Part shown: positions 21,883-44,297 of the stretch, piece by piece
How the letters are laid out: each line of letters opens with the position of its first letter
Position numbering within the stretch: position 1 is the first letter of the stretch
Source: Myxococcota bacterium
Lineage (GTDB): Bacteria; Myxococcota_A; UBA9160; SMWR01
Length of the DNA: 64,000 nucleotides
Reading direction: 5' to 3'
Assembly: GCA_039030075.1 (NCBI GenBank)
Contig: JBCCEW010000002.1
Location: 124,001-188,000, forward strand
Program-made: the position numbers and the translations under genes
The notes under the pieces: generated by a model
Databases searched by the model: none
Seen by the model: the letters and a program-made list of their open reading frames with translations, nothing else
Told to the model about the DNA's origin: nothing

Positions 21883-23318
21883 CCAGGCCTCGCACAGCGG
21901 TGGCGTCGGAGCACGATGCGCTTCGGCGTCGCCTCCAGCGGACCGAACAAGATCCGTTGGCGCTGGTAGGCGATCTCGAGCGATCGCAGGCGCTCCGGGC
22001 CGGTGTGGTTCTCGTTCCACGCCCGACACAGGTAGGCGGCGTAGAGCTCGAGATGCACGGCGCCCTCGGGCGCCGAGATGCGGCGGAGGTACTCGGCCCA
22101 GCGGAAGGTCGGGTACAGGCCCGCGAGGTCGTCGGGCCGTTCCCAGTCGACTGGCGCGCCGTCGCGGAAGAGGTCGACGACCCGACCGTCTTCGAGGGTG
22201 CCGGGCACCACGTGCCAGCCGCGGTCGCGGGGCGGCGACGGCGCGAACATCCACCAGCTCTGTCCCAGGCGCAGCGAAGTGCCGATCCGGACGATCGATG
22301 GCGACAGCTCCAGGGACGCGCCTGGCAGGCTCGCCAGGTTCCACACCAGCACCAGCGCCGTTGCGCCGAGGGCGGCGGCGTTGCGCAAGCGTCCGCCGAG
22401 CGACCGTTCGACGGCGATCGGCTGGGGCTCGGTGACGTCGGCCGTGTCGGTCGCGCGCCAACAGCCCGAGGGAATCAGTCCCAGCACGCTGACGATCCCA
22501 ACGAGCGGGAAGCCGCCCAGGGAGAGCGTGAGTGCGCTTCCCAGGTGGAAGCCCGCGATCGCGATCAGGGCCCCGAGCCGCAGCCACGGCCAGACGATCG
22601 GCGCGAGCAGAAACACCGGGACGGCGTACTCGAAGGCGAGGACCGCATGAGTCGCGGCGCGAAGAAACTCTGGGAAGTCGGCGAGCCGGACTCCGAGGGG
22701 CCGCGCCATGTCCGACGCGAAGGCGTAGCGGACGGCGCTGCCGTCGAACCATTCGGGGCCCGTCTTGAGCAGCGCGCCGAAGCCATAGACCGCGGCGATC
22801 TGGAGGGCGTAGCCGGAGGTGGCGAACGACCAGAAGCGATCGGGTCCGGGGGGTGACTCGGAGCCGCGCGTATCGAGCGAGAACCGCGCGCCCCAGGGCA
22901 ACAGCATCCCGAAGAAGAGGACGCAGACGAGCAGGATGTCTTCGCCGTGGTTGAGCATCGGGTTGCGCGCCTGGAGCGAACCGACCAAGACCCACGAGAC
23001 CACGCTTGCGGTGCGCGTCCAACACCCCAGCCCCAGGAGGACGCCTGCGATCGCCGCAACCACGAAGAGCACCGATTCGAACGCCGAGCCTCCGCCGACG
23101 GCGTGGAGAGAGGTGAGGTCGAAGACGGCGCGCGTGCCGTCTGCGAGCGGCGCACTGCGGGGCAGCACGCCGAAGTCCGTGTAGTGGGCCCGTAGAGCCG
23201 TCGCCCGTCCCGCGAGGTCGGTCAGCAGGGAGACGGCGACACCGATCCGGAGCAGGGCGAGGGAGCGAAGGTCGGCCCCGAAGACCGCGCCGGCGCGCTC
23301 GCGCCAGGAGAAGCTCAG
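21879..23318 (-). CDS. HTTM-domain membrane protein (vitamin K-dependent carboxylase-like), apparent CTG start
   Basis: Polytopic membrane protein of about 479 residues with the HTTM domain shared with vitamin K-dependent gamma-carboxylase. Typical features are RSLALLRIGVAVSLLTDLAG, then HYTDFGVLPRSAPL, and MLNHGEDILLVCVLFFGMLL. The first GTG (23168) would remove the conserved first helix. Homology continues upstream in the same frame with no ATG, GTG or TTG. The best start is CTG at 23316-23318, with GGGAG about nine bases upstream and a CTGA overlap with the PEP-CTERM stop. Function is unknown; it may modify or process the secreted proteins encoded just before it. Confidence 0.78.
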   Translation of the reverse strand: MSFSWRERAGAVFGADLRSLALLRIGVAVSLLTDLAGRATALRAHYTDFGVLPRSAPLADGTRAVFDLTSLHAVGGGSAFESVLFVVAAIAGVLLGLGCWTRTASVVSWVLVGSLQARNPMLNHGEDILLVCVLFFGMLLPWGARFSLDTRGSESPPGPDRFWSFATSGYALQIAAVYGFGALLKTGPEWFDGSAVRYAFASDMARPLGVRLADFPEFLRAATHAVLAFEYAVPVFLLAPIVWPWLRLGALIAIAGFHLGSALTLSLGGFPLVGIVSVLGLIPSGCWRATDTADVTEPQPIAVERSLGGRLRNAAALGATALVLVWNLASLPGASLELSPSIVRIGTSLRLGQSWWMFAPSPPRDRGWHVVPGTLEDGRVVDLFRDGAPVDWERPDDLAGLYPTFRWAEYLRRISAPEGAVHLELYAAYLCRAWNENHTGPERLRSLEIAYQRQRILFGPLEATPKRIVLRRHRCARPG

Positions 23319-23869
23319 CTGCGGCGACTCCCGAGGGCGAGCCCGGTGAGCGCAAAGGCCAGCAGCAGTGCGGTCGTGGGTTCGGGGACGATCTGTACGC
23401 TGAGCAGGGGTGCCGTCGCGCCGAAGAAATCCGCGACGGGGAAGTCGAAGCTGGCTTCACCCACGGCGTCCGCGCTGAACTCGATGATGGCGAAGCTGGT
23501 GTAGGGGTCCGCCGGGGTGCCGGTCGGGCTCACGGCCAGCTGGTCCATCACGCGGCAGCGGCCCGGCTGGTCACATTGTCCCTGGAGCCCGCTGGGCATC
23601 CACGAGGCCGATCCGAAGGACATGACGTTGGCGGGGACGGTCGTGATCGTCGCGTTCCCCAGGAGCGCGTCATCGAAGCCGAGGGTGAGGATCGCCGCCG
23701 AGGCGGTGGGACTGCCCGTCACGCTCAGGTCGACGCGCACCGAGATCGTCTCGCCCAACGTGTACGTCGACTGGTCGGCGCTGAGCAGGATCGATGCAGC
23801 GCTCGCGGGCATGGCTGGTGCGAACAGGAGCATCAGAAGAGAGATCGCCTGGATCAATCGATGCAGCAT
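23315..23869 (-). CDS. PEP-CTERM protein, array member 1
   Basis: Secreted protein of 184 residues. A signal peptide (MLHRLIQAISLLMLLFAPAM) is followed by a beta-rich domain with YTLGETISVRVDLSV near residue 36, a two-cysteine loop GLQGQCDQPGRCRVMDQ near residue 93, and DFFGATAPLL near residue 148. The sorting tail has VPEPTT, a hydrophobic helix and terminal RRS, so it should be handled by an exosortase encoded elsewhere. TGGAGG precedes ATG 23869. It is the last and most divergent of six tandem paralogues, and its stop overlaps the HTTM start. Confidence 0.88.
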   Translation of the reverse strand: MLHRLIQAISLLMLLFAPAMPASAASILLSADQSTYTLGETISVRVDLSVTGSPTASAAILTLGFDDALLGNATITTVPANVMSFGSASWMPSGLQGQCDQPGRCRVMDQLAVSPTGTPADPYTSFAIIEFSADAVGEASFDFPVADFFGATAPLLSVQIVPEPTTALLLAFALTGLALGSRRS

Positions 23870-23900
23870 GGGGCCTCCAGTCGCGATTGCAAGACGAGGG

Positions 23901-24485
23901 TCAGCCGGTCTTCGCCCCGCGAAACGTCGAGCGGCGCAGCCGGGCTCCTGCCCCTGCGAGCAACGCCGCGAACGAAATCAACCCGAGGGTGCCGGGTTCG
24001 GGCACCGTGATCAGGTGCAGCGCCGGGGGATTCGCGGCCCCGAAGAAGTTGTTGACAGCGATGTCGAAGAACGAGTCGATCCCCTCGATCAGGAACGAGA
24101 AGACCGCCGAAGACGTGTAGGAGGGCTGCACGCCGGCGCCGGTTGGATTCGGAGCGATCTGATCGATGACCCGGCACAGGTTGCGCTGATCGCATTGACC
24201 CTCGAGCGCGGCGGTGGTCCAGGGTGCCGACCCCCCAAAGGACGTGAGCTGGTCCACTCCGTTCACGAGCGTCGCATTGGTCGGAGCGCCCGCGTACCCG
24301 AGCGTCACCAGTGCACCGGGGGCCGTCTCTCCTTCGTCGATCGAGAGTGTGACCGTGATGAACACGGTCTCGCCCCAGGTAGGAAACAGGGTGTTCGCGC
24401 TGAGGTCGATCGTCGCTGCTGGCGCAGGCAGGGCCGTACCCCAGGCGAGCAACGAAACCAGGCTGAGAAGCAACGGTCTTCGCAT
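23901..24485 (-). CDS. PEP-CTERM protein, array member 2
   Basis: Secreted protein of 194 residues with the array domain plan: signal peptide, then FPTWGETVFITVTLSIDEGE, VDQLTSFGGSAPWTTAALEG, the two-cysteine loop QCDQRNLCRVIDQIAPNPTG, NNFFGAANPP and the sorting tail TVPEPGTLGLISF ending in a basic stretch. GAGGAGAG precedes ATG 24485. Only 15 bp separate it from member 3. Function is unknown; the beta-sandwich pattern resembles cohesin-like carbohydrate- or protein-binding modules. Confidence 0.88.
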   Translation of the reverse strand: MRRPLLLSLVSLLAWGTALPAPAATIDLSANTLFPTWGETVFITVTLSIDEGETAPGALVTLGYAGAPTNATLVNGVDQLTSFGGSAPWTTAALEGQCDQRNLCRVIDQIAPNPTGAGVQPSYTSSAVFSFLIEGIDSFFDIAVNNFFGAANPPALHLITVPEPGTLGLISFAALLAGAGARLRRSTFRGAKTG

Positions 24486-38358: not shown

Positions 38359-38943
38359 TCAGCGGGACCGGCGCCCGTAGCGCGCCGCGATCCACAGCGC
38401 GGTTCCGAAGATCAGCGCCGCCGAGGGCTCGGGAATCGCCGGGATCGTGAGCGATGCGCCCATCACCGTCGGCATCAGGTCGTTGCCCAGGGCATCGGAG
38501 AGCAGGGCCTGATCGAAGCTGAGCGCCGTGGTGCCCGCCGCGATCGCCTGGAAGGTGAGGGTCGCGAGGACGACGGTGTCGCCCTGGGCTGCGTCCAGGG
38601 CCGCGGGCGCCAGGAACGAGACCTCGAAGATGTCCAGCACGCCGCCCGCCGCGTTCTGGGAGAAGAACGTGGTCGGAGGCATGCCGTTCGGGTCACCGAG
38701 CTCACCGCCGGGTACCGCGTCGATGAACTGGATCAGACCCGCATCGAAGGCGATGTCGAAGTCGTAGGCGCCCACGGAAGGGGCGACACCGTTGCCGAGG
38801 CCGGCCGCGACGATGTCCACCGTGAAGAGATCGCTGATCGCCGGGTCGGTCGCCGGTGTGGCGAAGGCGAGCGTCGCCGCGCCCGCCGAGGCGCCCGTCA
38901 GGGAGAGGGCCAGGGTCAGCGCTGCAAGGATTCCGCGTTTCAT
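38359..38943 (-). CDS. Cohesin-like PEP-CTERM protein
   Basis: Secreted protein of 194 residues. After the signal peptide (KRGILAALTLALSLTGASAG), the domain reads like a cohesin: DLFTVDIVAAGLGNG, VGAYDFDIAFDAGLIQFIDA, VLATLTFQAIAAGTTALSFD and MGASLTIPA. The sorting tail is IPEPSAALIFGTALWIAARY with terminal RRSR. It lies 14 bp after the stop of a 1779-residue protein that ends in a dockerin, so both are probably on one mRNA and may bind each other. ATG 38943 has GGGAG at better spacing than the ATG one codon upstream. Confidence 0.88.
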   Translation of the reverse strand: MKRGILAALTLALSLTGASAGAATLAFATPATDPAISDLFTVDIVAAGLGNGVAPSVGAYDFDIAFDAGLIQFIDAVPGGELGDPNGMPPTTFFSQNAAGGVLDIFEVSFLAPAALDAAQGDTVVLATLTFQAIAAGTTALSFDQALLSDALGNDLMPTVMGASLTIPAIPEPSAALIFGTALWIAARYGRRSR

Positions 38944-38957
38944 CATTCGCTCCCGTC

Positions 38958-41900
38958 TCATCGGAGGGCTCCGGCGCGCGCCTGGCGCGCTCGGCGTCGG
39001 AAGTAGGGGATGGCCACCAGCAGCAGCTCGATGCCCAGCAGGCCGCAGCCCGACTTGTTCTGACAGTTCGGGCGGTCGCACGAGAGCGTGCAGATCCGGG
39101 CGTCGAAGACGTTGATCGAGCCGTCGCCGTTGGCGTCGCGCGGATCGCCTGGGCCCGTGGACGTCTGGCCGAAGGCCTGGGTGATCAGCTGGATGTCCAT
39201 CGAGTCGATGAACTCGTTGCCGTCGACATCGCAGACCATCGGCGGGGCGGCGGCCCGGCAGTCCGACGGGCAGCTGTCGCCGTCGTCTAGGTTGCCGTCG
39301 TCGCAGGCCTCGTTGGCCTCGAGAACGCCGTTGCCGCAGGTCGAGAAGTCGCAGGCGTCGCCCAGGTCGTCCTGGTCGACGTCGGTCTGCTGCACGTTCG
39401 GCTCGAAGACGCAGTTGTCGAAGGCGTCGCTCACGCCGTCGCCGTCGATGTCGCCGCTCGCGACGAGGATCCGGTCGTCCCGACAGGTGATCGTCGCGTC
39501 GATGCACGGGGTCTCGCCGCCGCAACCCGGGCAGTCGGCGTCGGTCACGCAGGAGCCGAGCTGACGCGCGCACACGCCCATGTCGGCACCGGGCGCGATG
39601 TCGCAGATCTCGTCGCCGCCGCAGTCCTGGCTCGACATGGCGCCAGCGGGGCTGCCGCAGACCGTGGCCGTCTGCTGGAAGCAGAGGCCTTCGCCGAGGA
39701 ACGCGGTGTCGCCGCCGCTGCCGGCCAGCGGGTCTCCCTGGCTGTCGCCCGTCTCGACGGTGCCGCCGATCTCGACTTCGCCCGAGCGGCCGAAGCAGAG
39801 CGCCACCAGGAGCTCGCCACTGACCCCGTTCGCGTTGAGGTCGCCACCGGGGAGCGGCACGCCGTCGAAGAATCCGCAGCTGCCGTCGGCGATCGTGGGT
39901 TCGACGCCCTGCGAGCACTCCTGGGTGAGGGCGCGGATCTGCGCCTCGTCGACGCGGAAGGTCTCGCGCGGGTCACAGGCCTCTTCGACGCACGGCGTGA
40001 TTGCGAGCTCGCAGCTCACGAGCCGGTCGTTCGCCGTGTCGTAGGCCGAGAGGACGTCGTCGCAGCAGTCGCCGTCGCCGTTCAAGTCGCAGCCGCAGGT
40101 GTTCACGATGCCCGAGTCGAGACAGAAGTCGCGCTCGCTGCAGCCCGAGAGCAGCAGACCCTCTTCGAAGTCGCAGCAATCGCCGTCGCCGTCGAGATCG
40201 CAGCCACAGCCCAGGTTCTGGGCCTCTTCGCAGAAGAGGGTCTCGGCGCAGAGACTGATCTCGCGGGTGGCGATCCCGATCAGCGCGCCTTCGCGGCAGG
40301 TCTCGCCGGTCTGGCAGTCGGCGGCAGCGGCGCAGGTCTCGCCGAACGCCCGACACGCGCCGGCGTCGCAGAATTCGCCGGCGCCGCAGTCGTCGTCGAC
40401 GGTGCAGGCCGCGCCGGGCGCGCCGACGCAGACGCCCGAGAACGGGCCGATCTCGCAGAACTGAGCGCCGATGCCCGGCTCGAGCAGGGTGCCCGTGCTC
40501 GCGTCGTAGGCCTGGGCGTAGCGGTCGGCCATGTCGCCGTCGCCGTTCGCATCCACGCCCTGCTCGCTCTCGAGGGTGGTGAAGGACACGATCGGTCCAG
40601 ACACGCCGCAGATCTCGTCCGAGGTCTGCGCCGCGCCGGCACCGTCCGTCACCGGGGTCCAGCCGCCGGCCGTCACGTCCCAGACCGAGACCACGTCTCC
40701 GCCGGCAACGCCGTCGTCGACGCGGGCGGCCAGGTGGGTCTCGGAGAGCTTCACCTCGCTCGCGTCCTCACCGAGGTTCTGGACGCTGCCGCGGTTGGTG
40801 TAGAAGCAGACGTTCACGTCGTCGGTGTCGGTGTCGCCGTTGCCGTCGACGGGCGCGATGCGGTCGGCGTCCTCATCGCAGAGGAAGGCCGCGTTTCCGG
40901 CCGCAACGCTGGCCTGGCTCGCGGGGCCGAGCTGAGTGGGCGCGCCCGGGCTCCGGGCGTCGAAGACGTGGAGCAGGATGTCGTCGAGATCGCCGTCCTG
41001 GAGCAGGTCGCCGGTCAGACCGCCGATGCCCGGCAGCCGCGTGCGAATGCCGTGGATGTACGTGTCGATGCGCTCGTTGCCGTCGAAAGCGACGAGCGGG
41101 GCGATCGTGGCCAGGCCTGCGTGGAGGCCCCGGGTGGAGATCCCCGGAGCATCGATCTCGTTGGGCTCGACCGACTGGAGCACGCCGTCCTGATCGATCG
41201 CGGTGAAGTGGGTGATGCCCGTGGTGAGATCGACTTGCAGGCTCTGGGGCTCGATCAGGACCGTGCCCTCGATGGGGTCGAAGACCAGTTCCGAGACCAT
41301 CGCGACGTAGCGGCCGTCGGGCGAGATCCGCGGCGGCTCGCCGACGCTGAGGACGGCCGGCACCGAGGCGCCGTAGGTGTTCGTGAGGGCGACGGCCGCC
41401 GCCGGCACGAACTGCAACCGCTCGGCGTCGGCGTGGTAGACGTACACGTCGCTCGAACCGCCCGTGTCCTCGGGCAGGAGGTTCGCGGTCGTGGTGAACG
41501 CCACGCGCTTCCCGTCGGCCGAGATGGAGGGGTCCGAGGAAAAGCCCGTCGCGGCGCCGGGGCTGGCCCATTCGGCCTGGCCCGTCTCGCGATCCAGGAT
41601 GTAGACGTCGGTGCCGCCGCCGTAGCCGTCCCCGTCGACGTCGTTCTCGTCGATGTTCCGGTTCGTGGCGAAGGCGAGATAGCGACCGTCTTCGGAGAGC
41701 GACGGGCGCTCGTTGAAGATGTCGTCGCCGAAGAAGCCCGGGTCGCCCTCCGAGCCGGGCAGTACGAGTTCGACGGTGTCGGTCGCGACGTCGTAGGTGC
41801 AGATGGAGGCCGGCGGCTCGCCTTCCTGGGGAGAGACCTCCCAGGCGGCCGTCGAGCCGTCGTTGCTGATCACCGGGTACTCGGCGTCGGAGCTGCTGCC

Positions 41901-44297
41901 AGCGGCGCAAGGCGGCCGCGAGATCCAGGTCGTGGTGCCGTTCTGACGATCGCGCAAATAGACGTGGGTGACGAAACTGCCGGGCGCGCCGAAGTTGCTC
42001 GCGCGGCTGGGGAAGACCACGAAGCGGCCGTCGTCGGAGACGTCCGCTCCCGGCGTGAAGCGCTCACCCGACCCTTCGTCGCCGAGGTCGCCATTCGTCG
42101 CGACGCTGATCAGCTCGGTCAGGATCTCGCCGGGCTCGTCGTAGAGCCCGTCCTCGTCGGGGTCGCGGTCGATCAGGTAGACGTCGCGCTCGTCGTTCGT
42201 GTCGGCGGGCACGGTGACGATGTCGACGGCCGTGGTGTCGTAGGCCACGAAGCGGCCGTCGCTGCTCATCGCCGCGCGCTCCCGGCTGAACTCGGTGAAC
42301 GAGAAGCTCGAGAACTCGACGGGAACGTTTCCGTCCGCGTCGCTGCTGGACGGCGTCGAGACCCGCTCGCCTTCGTCGGCTTCGGAGACCCGGTAGAAGA
42401 CCTGGCCGTCCGAGATCGCGAGGGAGAGGCCGTCGATCACCGGGCCGGCGTCGGCCGTGGTGAGCGGGTTCAGCGGCGCGTTCGGGGTCGCGTCGTCGGC
42501 GGAGCGCTGGTAGACCCGCAGGAAGTTGTCTTCGACCCGGTTGTTGCTGTTGAGGTCGTTGCCGAAGTCGGTCGGCTCGGACTGCAGGAAGGCGAGGATG
42601 TCGTCTTCGACGCCCACCGCCGTGAAGCGGTAGGGCGGCTGGATCACCTGGGTGGCCGCCACACCGACCGCCGTCGCCTGGATGCCGATCTGCTGCTCGG
42701 TGCCGGTCTCGCGGTTGACCATGGTCATCGCGATGTCGGTGACGTCCCCGTCGGCGTTGAAGTCGGCGTCGGTGGGTGAGCCCTCGGCCGCTTCGAAGGC
42801 CTCGACCCGCGGCAGGGCGAGGATGTCGTCGCTCTGCTGGATGAACAGCGACTCGAGGGGCACGAGATTGCCGGCCGTCGCGACGTAGGTGTCGTCGAGG
42901 GTGGGGCCGCAGCCCTCGCCCGCGAAGCGCGTCGAGAAGTCGAAGAGCGACGGGCCGCACTCGCTCCCGCTCGGGCAGTCGCTGTCTGCGTTGCAGGCTA
43001 CGTCGGCCAGCGGGGCCGGCAGCTGGGAGAGCGGGACGGGCCGCTCGCCGAGGTTCGGCGCCTGGTGGCACACGCTCGGGTCGCAGCTGAAGCCCTCACC
43101 GCACTCTTCGTCCAGGTTGCAGGGCTCGCCGGCGAAGGGGCTGCCGGCGGCACACGCGGCGAACGTCTCTCCGCGGCGGTTGATGCGGGTGATCGAGAAC
43201 GGCGCGTCGACCGAGCCGTAGAGCACGACCGAACCCCCGCCCTCTTCGGCGAAGGGCGACAGGATCGGCGGCAGGAAATGGCCTTGAGGCGAGAGCGCCG
43301 AGCTGAAGCTCTGGCCGGGAACGCGAATCGCGTCCGCACTTCCGGTGAAGGCGGAGATCTCGCTCGACAGGTTCACCAGTCGCGGCACCGGCGTGCCGTC
43401 GTCGAGGCGCACCAGCACGCCGGCCCAGTTCACGGGCACCAGCAGGTTGCCCGCTGTGTCGATCGTGAAGCGCGCGTCGGGGCGGATCCCGTCGCAGGGC
43501 GAGCCCGGCTCGGGCGTACACATCGCCTCGTAGTTGTTGTAGACGGGCAGCGCCGTGAAGGACGGGAACGTGCCCTGGATCTGCGCCGGGTCGGTCTCGC
43601 AGGTGTCGTTGACGTCGTAGAGCTCGTCGACGCAGGCGACGAGGTCGCTGCCCACCACGGTGTCGGCGCAGCGATTGCTCGCGAGCTCACACGGCAGGTC
43701 GCCCGCCGGGTCGCGCGGCTGGATCGCGATCTTGACGGTGCCGGCCAGGGTCGAGCCCGCAGGTGCGCTCGGGCCGGCCAGGGCGTTGGTATCCGGGAAG
43801 GGGAAGATCAGGGTTCCCGAATCCGGGATCACGAGGTCTGCCGCCTGGCAGATGGCCTGGCGGGTGGCGGTCGGATCGCCGGCGCCGAGCACCGGCAGCT
43901 CGGCCTGGCAGGCGTTGGCCTGGGCGCTGCCCGCGAAGCCGGCGCACGCGACGGGCCCGTCCTGGAGCACCAGCGCATTCGCCGGCCCGTTCGGCGGCGT
44001 GAAGATCAAGACGACCTGGTAGTCGTCGTCGGGGCCCACGTTCGTGCCGAGGTCGATCAGGCCGGCGCCGGCCGACGACTCGCAGCCGGTCAGGTCCAGG
44101 CTCAGGGTGACCGGGTCGCCGGGGGCGGCGAAGGGTCGGTCGAGGCTACTCAGGCTCGCCCGGAAGGTGTTCTCGGTCCCGGGGACGAAGTTGCAGCTCG
44201 CGTCGGCCGGGCGCGCCGTGGACGCGCAGATCGCCAGGGCAATGGCGCCCAGGACGAGGCCGAAGCGAGACGAACGAAAGGGATCCGGAGAGGGCAT
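38958..44297 (-). CDS. Giant secreted protein with TolB-like repeats, Cys-rich modules, dockerin and sorting tail
   Basis: Exported protein of 1779 residues; ATG 44297 has GGAGG, and a signal peptide follows. Residues 30-350 are beta-rich with many cysteines. TolB/PD40-like propeller repeats lie near residues 670-1010 (DGRFVAYDTTA, DGKRVAFTTTANLLPED, DGRYVAMVSEL). Cys-rich EGF-like modules lie near 1285-1400 (CTVDDDCGAGEFCDAGAC). Thrombospondin type 3 and Myxococcus-type repeats (ACDDGNLDDGDSCPSDC) lie near 1620-1685. A dockerin with two calcium loops, DVDGNEFIDSMD and DANGDGSINVFD, is at 1690-1735. The C-terminus is SGCGLLGIELLLVAIPYF plus arginines, a sorting-signal-like tail with cysteine. 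Probably surface-attached; function unknown. Confidence 0.88.
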   Translation of the reverse strand: MPSPDPFRSSRFGLVLGAIALAICASTARPADASCNFVPGTENTFRASLSSLDRPFAAPGDPVTLSLDLTGCESSAGAGLIDLGTNVGPDDDYQVVLIFTPPNGPANALVLQDGPVACAGFAGSAQANACQAELPVLGAGDPTATRQAICQAADLVIPDSGTLIFPFPDTNALAGPSAPAGSTLAGTVKIAIQPRDPAGDLPCELASNRCADTVVGSDLVACVDELYDVNDTCETDPAQIQGTFPSFTALPVYNNYEAMCTPEPGSPCDGIRPDARFTIDTAGNLLVPVNWAGVLVRLDDGTPVPRLVNLSSEISAFTGSADAIRVPGQSFSSALSPQGHFLPPILSPFAEEGGGSVVLYGSVDAPFSITRINRRGETFAACAAGSPFAGEPCNLDEECGEGFSCDPSVCHQAPNLGERPVPLSQLPAPLADVACNADSDCPSGSECGPSLFDFSTRFAGEGCGPTLDDTYVATAGNLVPLESLFIQQSDDILALPRVEAFEAAEGSPTDADFNADGDVTDIAMTMVNRETGTEQQIGIQATAVGVAATQVIQPPYRFTAVGVEDDILAFLQSEPTDFGNDLNSNNRVEDNFLRVYQRSADDATPNAPLNPLTTADAGPVIDGLSLAISDGQVFYRVSEADEGERVSTPSSSDADGNVPVEFSSFSFTEFSRERAAMSSDGRFVAYDTTAVDIVTVPADTNDERDVYLIDRDPDEDGLYDEPGEILTELISVATNGDLGDEGSGERFTPGADVSDDGRFVVFPSRASNFGAPGSFVTHVYLRDRQNGTTTWISRPPCAAGSSSDAEYPVISNDGSTAAWEVSPQEGEPPASICTYDVATDTVELVLPGSEGDPGFFGDDIFNERPSLSEDGRYLAFATNRNIDENDVDGDGYGGGTDVYILDRETGQAEWASPGAATGFSSDPSISADGKRVAFTTTANLLPEDTGGSSDVYVYHADAERLQFVPAAAVALTNTYGASVPAVLSVGEPPRISPDGRYVAMVSELVFDPIEGTVLIEPQSLQVDLTTGITHFTAIDQDGVLQSVEPNEIDAPGISTRGLHAGLATIAPLVAFDGNERIDTYIHGIRTRLPGIGGLTGDLLQDGDLDDILLHVFDARSPGAPTQLGPASQASVAAGNAAFLCDEDADRIAPVDGNGDTDTDDVNVCFYTNRGSVQNLGEDASEVKLSETHLAARVDDGVAGGDVVSVWDVTAGGWTPVTDGAGAAQTSDEICGVSGPIVSFTTLESEQGVDANGDGDMADRYAQAYDASTGTLLEPGIGAQFCEIGPFSGVCVGAPGAACTVDDDCGAGEFCDAGACRAFGETCAAAADCQTGETCREGALIGIATREISLCAETLFCEEAQNLGCGCDLDGDGDCCDFEEGLLLSGCSERDFCLDSGIVNTCGCDLNGDGDCCDDVLSAYDTANDRLVSCELAITPCVEEACDPRETFRVDEAQIRALTQECSQGVEPTIADGSCGFFDGVPLPGGDLNANGVSGELLVALCFGRSGEVEIGGTVETGDSQGDPLAGSGGDTAFLGEGLCFQQTATVCGSPAGAMSSQDCGGDEICDIAPGADMGVCARQLGSCVTDADCPGCGGETPCIDATITCRDDRILVASGDIDGDGVSDAFDNCVFEPNVQQTDVDQDDLGDACDFSTCGNGVLEANEACDDGNLDDGDSCPSDCRAAAPPMVCDVDGNEFIDSMDIQLITQAFGQTSTGPGDPRDANGDGSINVFDARICTLSCDRPNCQNKSGCGLLGIELLLVAIPYFRRRARQARAGALR

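Follow-up and report, generated by a model that had tools for sequence, protein, structure and literature searches.

A recurring cysteine-containing C-terminal tail on the dockerin half of a cohesin–dockerin gene pair in Myxococcota

Does one gene pair of a Myxococcota bacterium carry two different sorting signals, and is the cysteine-containing one of the two a genuine signal? The question arises from the window, the whole 64,000-nucleotide stretch analysed here (C2:124001-188000 of the source assembly G000, 5.76 Mb in 55 contigs), in which a giant surface protein with a dockerin module ends in a cysteine-containing tail and the partner gene encodes a cohesin protein with a PEP-CTERM tail. 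The features concerned are listed below.

38958..44297, minus strand: giant surface protein of 1779 aa (start ATG of MPSPDPFRSS; open frame up to 44594)
41439..41549, minus strand: PD40 beta-propeller repeat (Pfam PF07676, 40.6 bits, cut-off 20.9)
39096..39230, minus strand: dockerin type I module (Pfam PF00404, 23.9 bits, cut-off 22.9)
39027..39047, minus strand: tail signature CGLLGIE (C, G, G and E invariant, n=51 tails picked with a motif-favouring profile)
39000..39026, minus strand: hydrophobic stretch of the tail, LLLVAIPYF (sequence)
38961..38999, minus strand: Arg-rich C-terminus RRRARQARAGALR (sequence)
38958..38961, minus strand: ATGA overlap of the dockerin-gene stop and the cohesin-gene start (sequence)
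38359..38961, minus strand: partner gene with a signal-peptide-like start, cohesin and PEP-CTERM
38452..38790, minus strand: cohesin domain (Pfam PF00963, 29.3 bits, cut-off 24.1)
38362..38436, minus strand: PEP-CTERM tail of the cohesin protein (TIGR02595 PEP_CTERM, 16.7 bits, cut-off 16)

The 1779-aa protein runs from a signal-peptide-like start through the PD40 repeat and the dockerin to the cysteine tail; a TSP3 repeat within it scores 21.2 bits, under the Pfam cut-off of 25. The tail, CGLLGIELLLVAIPYFRRRARQARAGALR, occupies window 38958-39047 (minus strand) together with the TGA stop at 38960-38958, and is preceded in the minus-strand translation by RICTLSCDRPNCQNKSG. Its Cys codon (39047-39045, minus strand) lies about 17 residues beyond the end of the dockerin module. 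The Cys, the helix and the Arg cluster at the C-terminus reproduce the MYXO-CTERM layout, and the sequence holds no PEP motif. The three-part, Cys-containing plan without PEP in the preliminary description was therefore read correctly, as was its difference from the PEP-CTERM tail of the neighbour.

The whole 1779-aa protein was searched against 60 related genomes. The sister proteins found align via their dockerin part, and their ends read CGLLGLE, CGLLGIE, CGLVGLE or CGVGAE, followed by a helix and an Arg run, and an alignment of seven related tails, the window's included, keeps C, G, G, E and RRR invariant. The profile of these seven tails matches 57 of the 60 related genomes at E<=10; at the stricter E<=1e-3 it still matches 36. 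At 29 of the best 30 loci the match lies no more than 25 aa from the stop codon, where 2.6 would be expected from even placement on the open reading frames; in the thirtieth the tail is internal, and a second hydrophobic helix, signal-peptide-like, comes after it. Among 51 aligned tails C, G, G and E are all invariant, an invariance partly built in by the motif-favouring profile with which they were picked. Four dockerin chains first found via the cohesin profile also have the C-G..G-x-E tail (G028:C152, G005:C820, G031:C233 and G055:C19). The profile search across the source genome that the preliminary description had called for gave six matches at E<=10, two of which were located and read: the window and the next best, a 929-aa protein (G000:C43, E 3.1e-4) that ends in PNPPVCGFGPELALLLPGLLWWQRRRLQSKA, or CGFGPELALLLPGLLWWQRRRLQSKA in longer form. 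The objection that no other protein of this genome carries a similar tail thus falls away. Collectively, the tail is a real, recurring C-terminal signal of the form C-G-x(1-2)-G-x-E, short helix and Arg cluster.

A plain similarity search with the tail as query returned nothing beyond itself, and the DNA pattern for CGLLGIEL with at most two mismatches occurred at 55 places in the source genome vs 40 for the reversed pattern, the one in the window being the sole C-terminal tail among the 30 loci opened. A near match at C2:123351 was rejected as a tail because it is the antisense of a sigma-factor-like open reading frame. A contig-wide pattern scan gave at least 120 stretches, mostly chance, from which true tails were chosen by eye (C-terminal helix and Arg run), so that it provides no counts. 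Outside the phylum, CGLLG-E tails are also present in Planctomycetota metagenome-assembled genomes (L290, L297, L265 and L286, among the matches listed). At G055:C10 (L299 / L079, JANQOX010000025.1), a single open frame runs through a CGLLGLE tail in its interior and a signal-peptide-like helix to a second Cys tail, CGLGFE, at its end.

The partner protein ends in IPEPSAALIFGTALWIAARYGRRSR. A profile of seven cohesin-PEP proteins searched against the PDB is led by cohesins (a NagJ chain at 7.2e-6 and cellulosomal scaffoldins), and a structural model of the cohesin, of modest quality (mean pLDDT 65), retrieves solved cohesins in all of the first 47 rows of a fold search. On the other side, a profile of 12 dockerin segments has its best PDB match at 4e-9 in 2y3n_B, a chain of a cohesin–dockerin complex with a cellulosomal dockerin, with calmodulins far behind. 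Scored singly, one of ten sister segments exceeds the Pfam PF00404 cut-off; several are thus called dockerin-like from their profile and Ca-loop pattern. The pair thus shares the cohesin fold and the dockerin Ca loops with cellulosomal and non-cellulosomal cohesin–dockerin pairs. It differs from them in that one cohesin and one dockerin are carried by a pair of genes, each with its own tag and coupled or fused, instead of a scaffoldin bearing many cohesins. Window 23318-23977 (minus strand) encodes a further PEP-CTERM protein, which matches the local profile of cohesin-PEP proteins weakly (E 1.5e-5).

At E<=1e-8, the cohesin-PEP protein occurs in 24 of 79 genomes of the order (35 rows), and 30 loci were read out of these rows, the five left out including one strong match (G038:C77). 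With dockerins and tails recognised by eye, 11 of the 30 loci, spread over 10 genomes and five families (f1, f4, f5, f7 and f10), have a Cys-tailed dockerin directly upstream: G000, G005:C820, G008:C86, G028:C152, G031, G034, G038:C42, G044, G049:C353, G049:C118 and G055. In two further loci (G038:C32 and G058:C52) the dockerin lies upstream of the cohesin but has no tail, which indicates that the tail is inessential to the pair. No upstream dockerin was seen in the remaining 17 loci, all counted in the denominator of 30 although several are weak matches, including G056, G070 and G066, which have no PEP-like end, and three (G046:C515, G005:C167 and G008:C459) showed no upstream open reading frame; at G057:C440, also among the 17, a Cys tail but no dockerin was seen on the upstream protein. 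A PEP-CTERM end is absent from all 13 upstream dockerin chains.

In four pairs the stop codon of one gene overlaps the start codon of the next, as ATGA in three (the window, G038:C42 and G034:C22) and as GTGA in one (G044:C24), and three loci (G049:C118, G008:C86 and G005:C820) are in-frame fusions with the tail inside, then a signal-peptide-like stretch, then the cohesin. Such fused forms suggest a topology in which the Arg end is cytoplasmic between two helices. The remainder of the upstream chains varies, with a PQQ propeller in G049:C118 and a subtilase with FG-GAP in G044, so the pair behaves as a cassette of dockerin-Cys-tail and cohesin-PEP attached to varied surface proteins. That two sorting tags serve one cohesin–dockerin gene pair is well supported. 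Our literature search returned no paper joining cohesin, dockerin and PEP-CTERM, and nothing related for dockerin and Myxococcota as judged from the titles listed. Dockerin and exosortase appear together in one study on methanotrophic archaea; the part of it consulted lists both without a link and calls the role of these modules outside the cellulosome unknown.

Which known signal, if any, does the tail belong to? An hmmscan of the window tail against NCBIfam gave no match at E<=10, so that TIGR03901 and TIGR03382, the models for MYXO-CTERM, fail on it at E<=10 as at E<=1, and no Pfam sorting model matches it. Across the 51 tails at E<=1, NCBIfam models match as MYXO-CTERM in 8, Synerg-CTERM in 7 and GC_trans_RRR in 5, the window tail being in none of these groups. 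The tail is thus a kind of signal without a model in NCBIfam release 20, and its motif may be mentioned in Haft 2024 on Cys-containing signals. The closest likeness is to MYXO-CTERM and its myxosortase MrtX (TIGR03901, NF040593): a Cys ahead of a helix and an Arg-rich end, on large exported proteins of the same phylum, with a few sister tails scoring weakly on the MYXO-CTERM models. However, the motif C-G-x-G-x-E of the window type, with its conserved Glu, differs from the generic GCGC of MYXO-CTERM. The likeness to PEP-CTERM is limited to the three-part plan and to the partner gene that bears such a signal. The GlyGly-CTERM signal of rhombosortase also resembles the Cys tail in its small residue, helix and Arg end. 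JDVT-CTERM with MrtJ and Synerg-CTERM with MrtS are comparable as sorting signals linked to CPBP proteases. MYXO-CTERM and JDVT-CTERM are described in PMC11980579 as Cys-containing signals linked to CPBP proteases; the paper also proposes an Lgt-like acyltransferase for MYXO-CTERM and states a myxosortase for all known Myxococcota genera.

A cognate protease gene co-occurring with the tail, which the preliminary description had suggested looking for, was not found among CPBP proteins, rhomboids, exosortases or tail-gene neighbours; the recurring neighbours at 44 loci include no multi-span membrane protease family. The CPBP proteins bear on the reading that the tail is a MYXO-CTERM signal in divergent form and that a likewise diverged CPBP protease, for example L002 (G000:C2:91158) or L001, cuts it. 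The invariant Cys fits this reading, as do two sister tails, L043 with 19.4 bits on TIGR03382 (cut-off 15.85) and L052 with 18.8 on TIGR03901 (cut-off 20), and the 25 bits of L002 on Mrt_core. However, the three CPBP proteins that pass the Pfam cut-off in the source genome include no known myxosortase: the best Mrt_core score is 25 of 100 bits, MrtX (NF040593) has no match in the genome, and MrtJ and MrtS reach at best 24.5 and 24.8 bits vs 75 and 130. No sampled member of the window's order exceeds the Mrt_core cut-off (0/60), whereas in the phylum-wide positive control 209 of 282 genomes do (230 newly added, G079-G308, hence 52 order members by subtraction), which means that the search works and that the absence is order-specific. 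The best order match in the phylum-wide search has an E value of 9.3e-11 (43.6 bits in the 60-genome search), so the 209 genomes all lie outside the order. Furthermore, the 72 CPBP proteins taken from 19 genomes, 11 tail-rich and 8 tail-poor as classed by the seven-tail profile search, form a tree with three near-universal clades in both kinds alike and no clade that tracks the tail. With the window tail itself unmatched by the models, we consider this reading quite unlikely; of the MYXO-CTERM resemblance noted earlier, the layout of Cys, helix and Arg cluster stands and membership is not supported.

Rhomboids occur in 19 of 19 genomes of another set, tail-rich and tail-poor alike, and the six rhomboid hits of the source genome reach at best 43.8 on the rhombosortase model TIGR03902 (cut-off 84), which separates the tail from GlyGly-CTERM. 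An exosortase of the source genome might instead also cut the Cys tail, with the Glu of CGLxGxE replacing that of PEP. The genome has four exosortase-family proteins, including an XrtA with 208.3 bits against a cut-off of 208 and an XrtH-like protein with 81.3 against 86, and exosortases are present in 54 of the 60 related genomes. Two exosortase-free genomes, G032 (96% complete) and G036 (92%), nevertheless have the tail at E<=1e-3 with no PF09721 match, which departs from the PEP-CTERM rule of occurring only with an exosortase, and exosortase and tail counts are uncorrelated over the 60 genomes (Spearman -0.17, p 0.20); exosortase cutting is very unlikely on these grounds. The XrtH-like short exosortase (L378 790-1539, G000:C8) stands apart from the three long exosortases of the source genome. 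Alternatively, the tail may never be cut and serve as an ordinary membrane anchor at the C-terminus, formed by a single short helix whose Arg end follows the positive-inside rule. The three-part plan suits a stop-transfer anchor, the searches gave no cognate protease, and signal peptidase alone could part the products of the fused forms, which are accordingly no proof of tail cleavage. Yet such an anchor has no need of conserved Cys, Gly, Gly and Glu, and a Glu in a short helix would be unfavourable for a permanent anchor, making this account unlikely.

For lipidation, the second place in the source genome with the tail offers a candidate. At G000:C43 the 929-aa Cys-tail gene lies between the gene of a 272-aa PEP-CTERM protein (TIGR02595, 22.8 bits) and that of a divergent Lgt paralog 135 bp downstream (PF01790 91.8 bits; TIGR00544 51.9 bits, cut-off 118.9), which is possibly the lipidating enzyme. 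This adjacency was seen once, and phmmer found no further Lgt-like open reading frames near tails in the loci searched. The PEP-CTERM and Cys-tail proteins stand side by side there (L125 4436-9115), with N-termini alike by eye, as a second own-genome place with both tags.

The explanation we favour, and to which we give even weight for and against, is a Cys-dependent sorting signal on the dockerin half and an exosortase route for the cohesin half, with one complex and two independent anchoring systems. After export, the dockerin protein would be kept in the inner membrane by the tail, whose Arg end would face the cytoplasm. By analogy with the MYXO-CTERM model of PMC11980579, the Cys would then most likely be lipidated by a putative acyltransferase, and an intramembrane protease would cut off the helix just after the Cys to leave a lipid-anchored surface protein. 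The partner cohesin, made from the overlapping start codon, would take the exosortase/PEP-CTERM route. The two chains would bind via cohesin and dockerin, the window cohesin presumably to the window dockerin, giving one complex that would be located at the cell surface on two anchoring systems. The earlier suggestion of two sorting systems for one operon is thereby upheld for the conserved two-tag pairing but not for the enzyme of the Cys tail, which was not found in the families searched.

For the lineage as a whole, it is a tentative proposal, possible but short of probable, that a myxosortase-less order of Myxococcota has an undescribed Cys-dependent sorting system (a CGxGxE tail, a protease yet unnamed and possibly the Lgt paralog for lipidation) and places cohesin–dockerin halves on two sorting systems, with translation coupling the halves or producing one fused chain that needs splitting. 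The order is an apparent exception to the universality of MrtX in Myxococcota genera given in PMC11980579. Because it nevertheless has Cys tails, it offers a place to look for their protease, and for the lipidating enzyme still missing, in the absence of the known one. The conserved pair places cohesin and dockerin in a specific context other than the cellulosome and is a natural example of two sorting tags serving one gene pair; the two different tails on paired proteins hint that a single surface complex is anchored along two separate routes.
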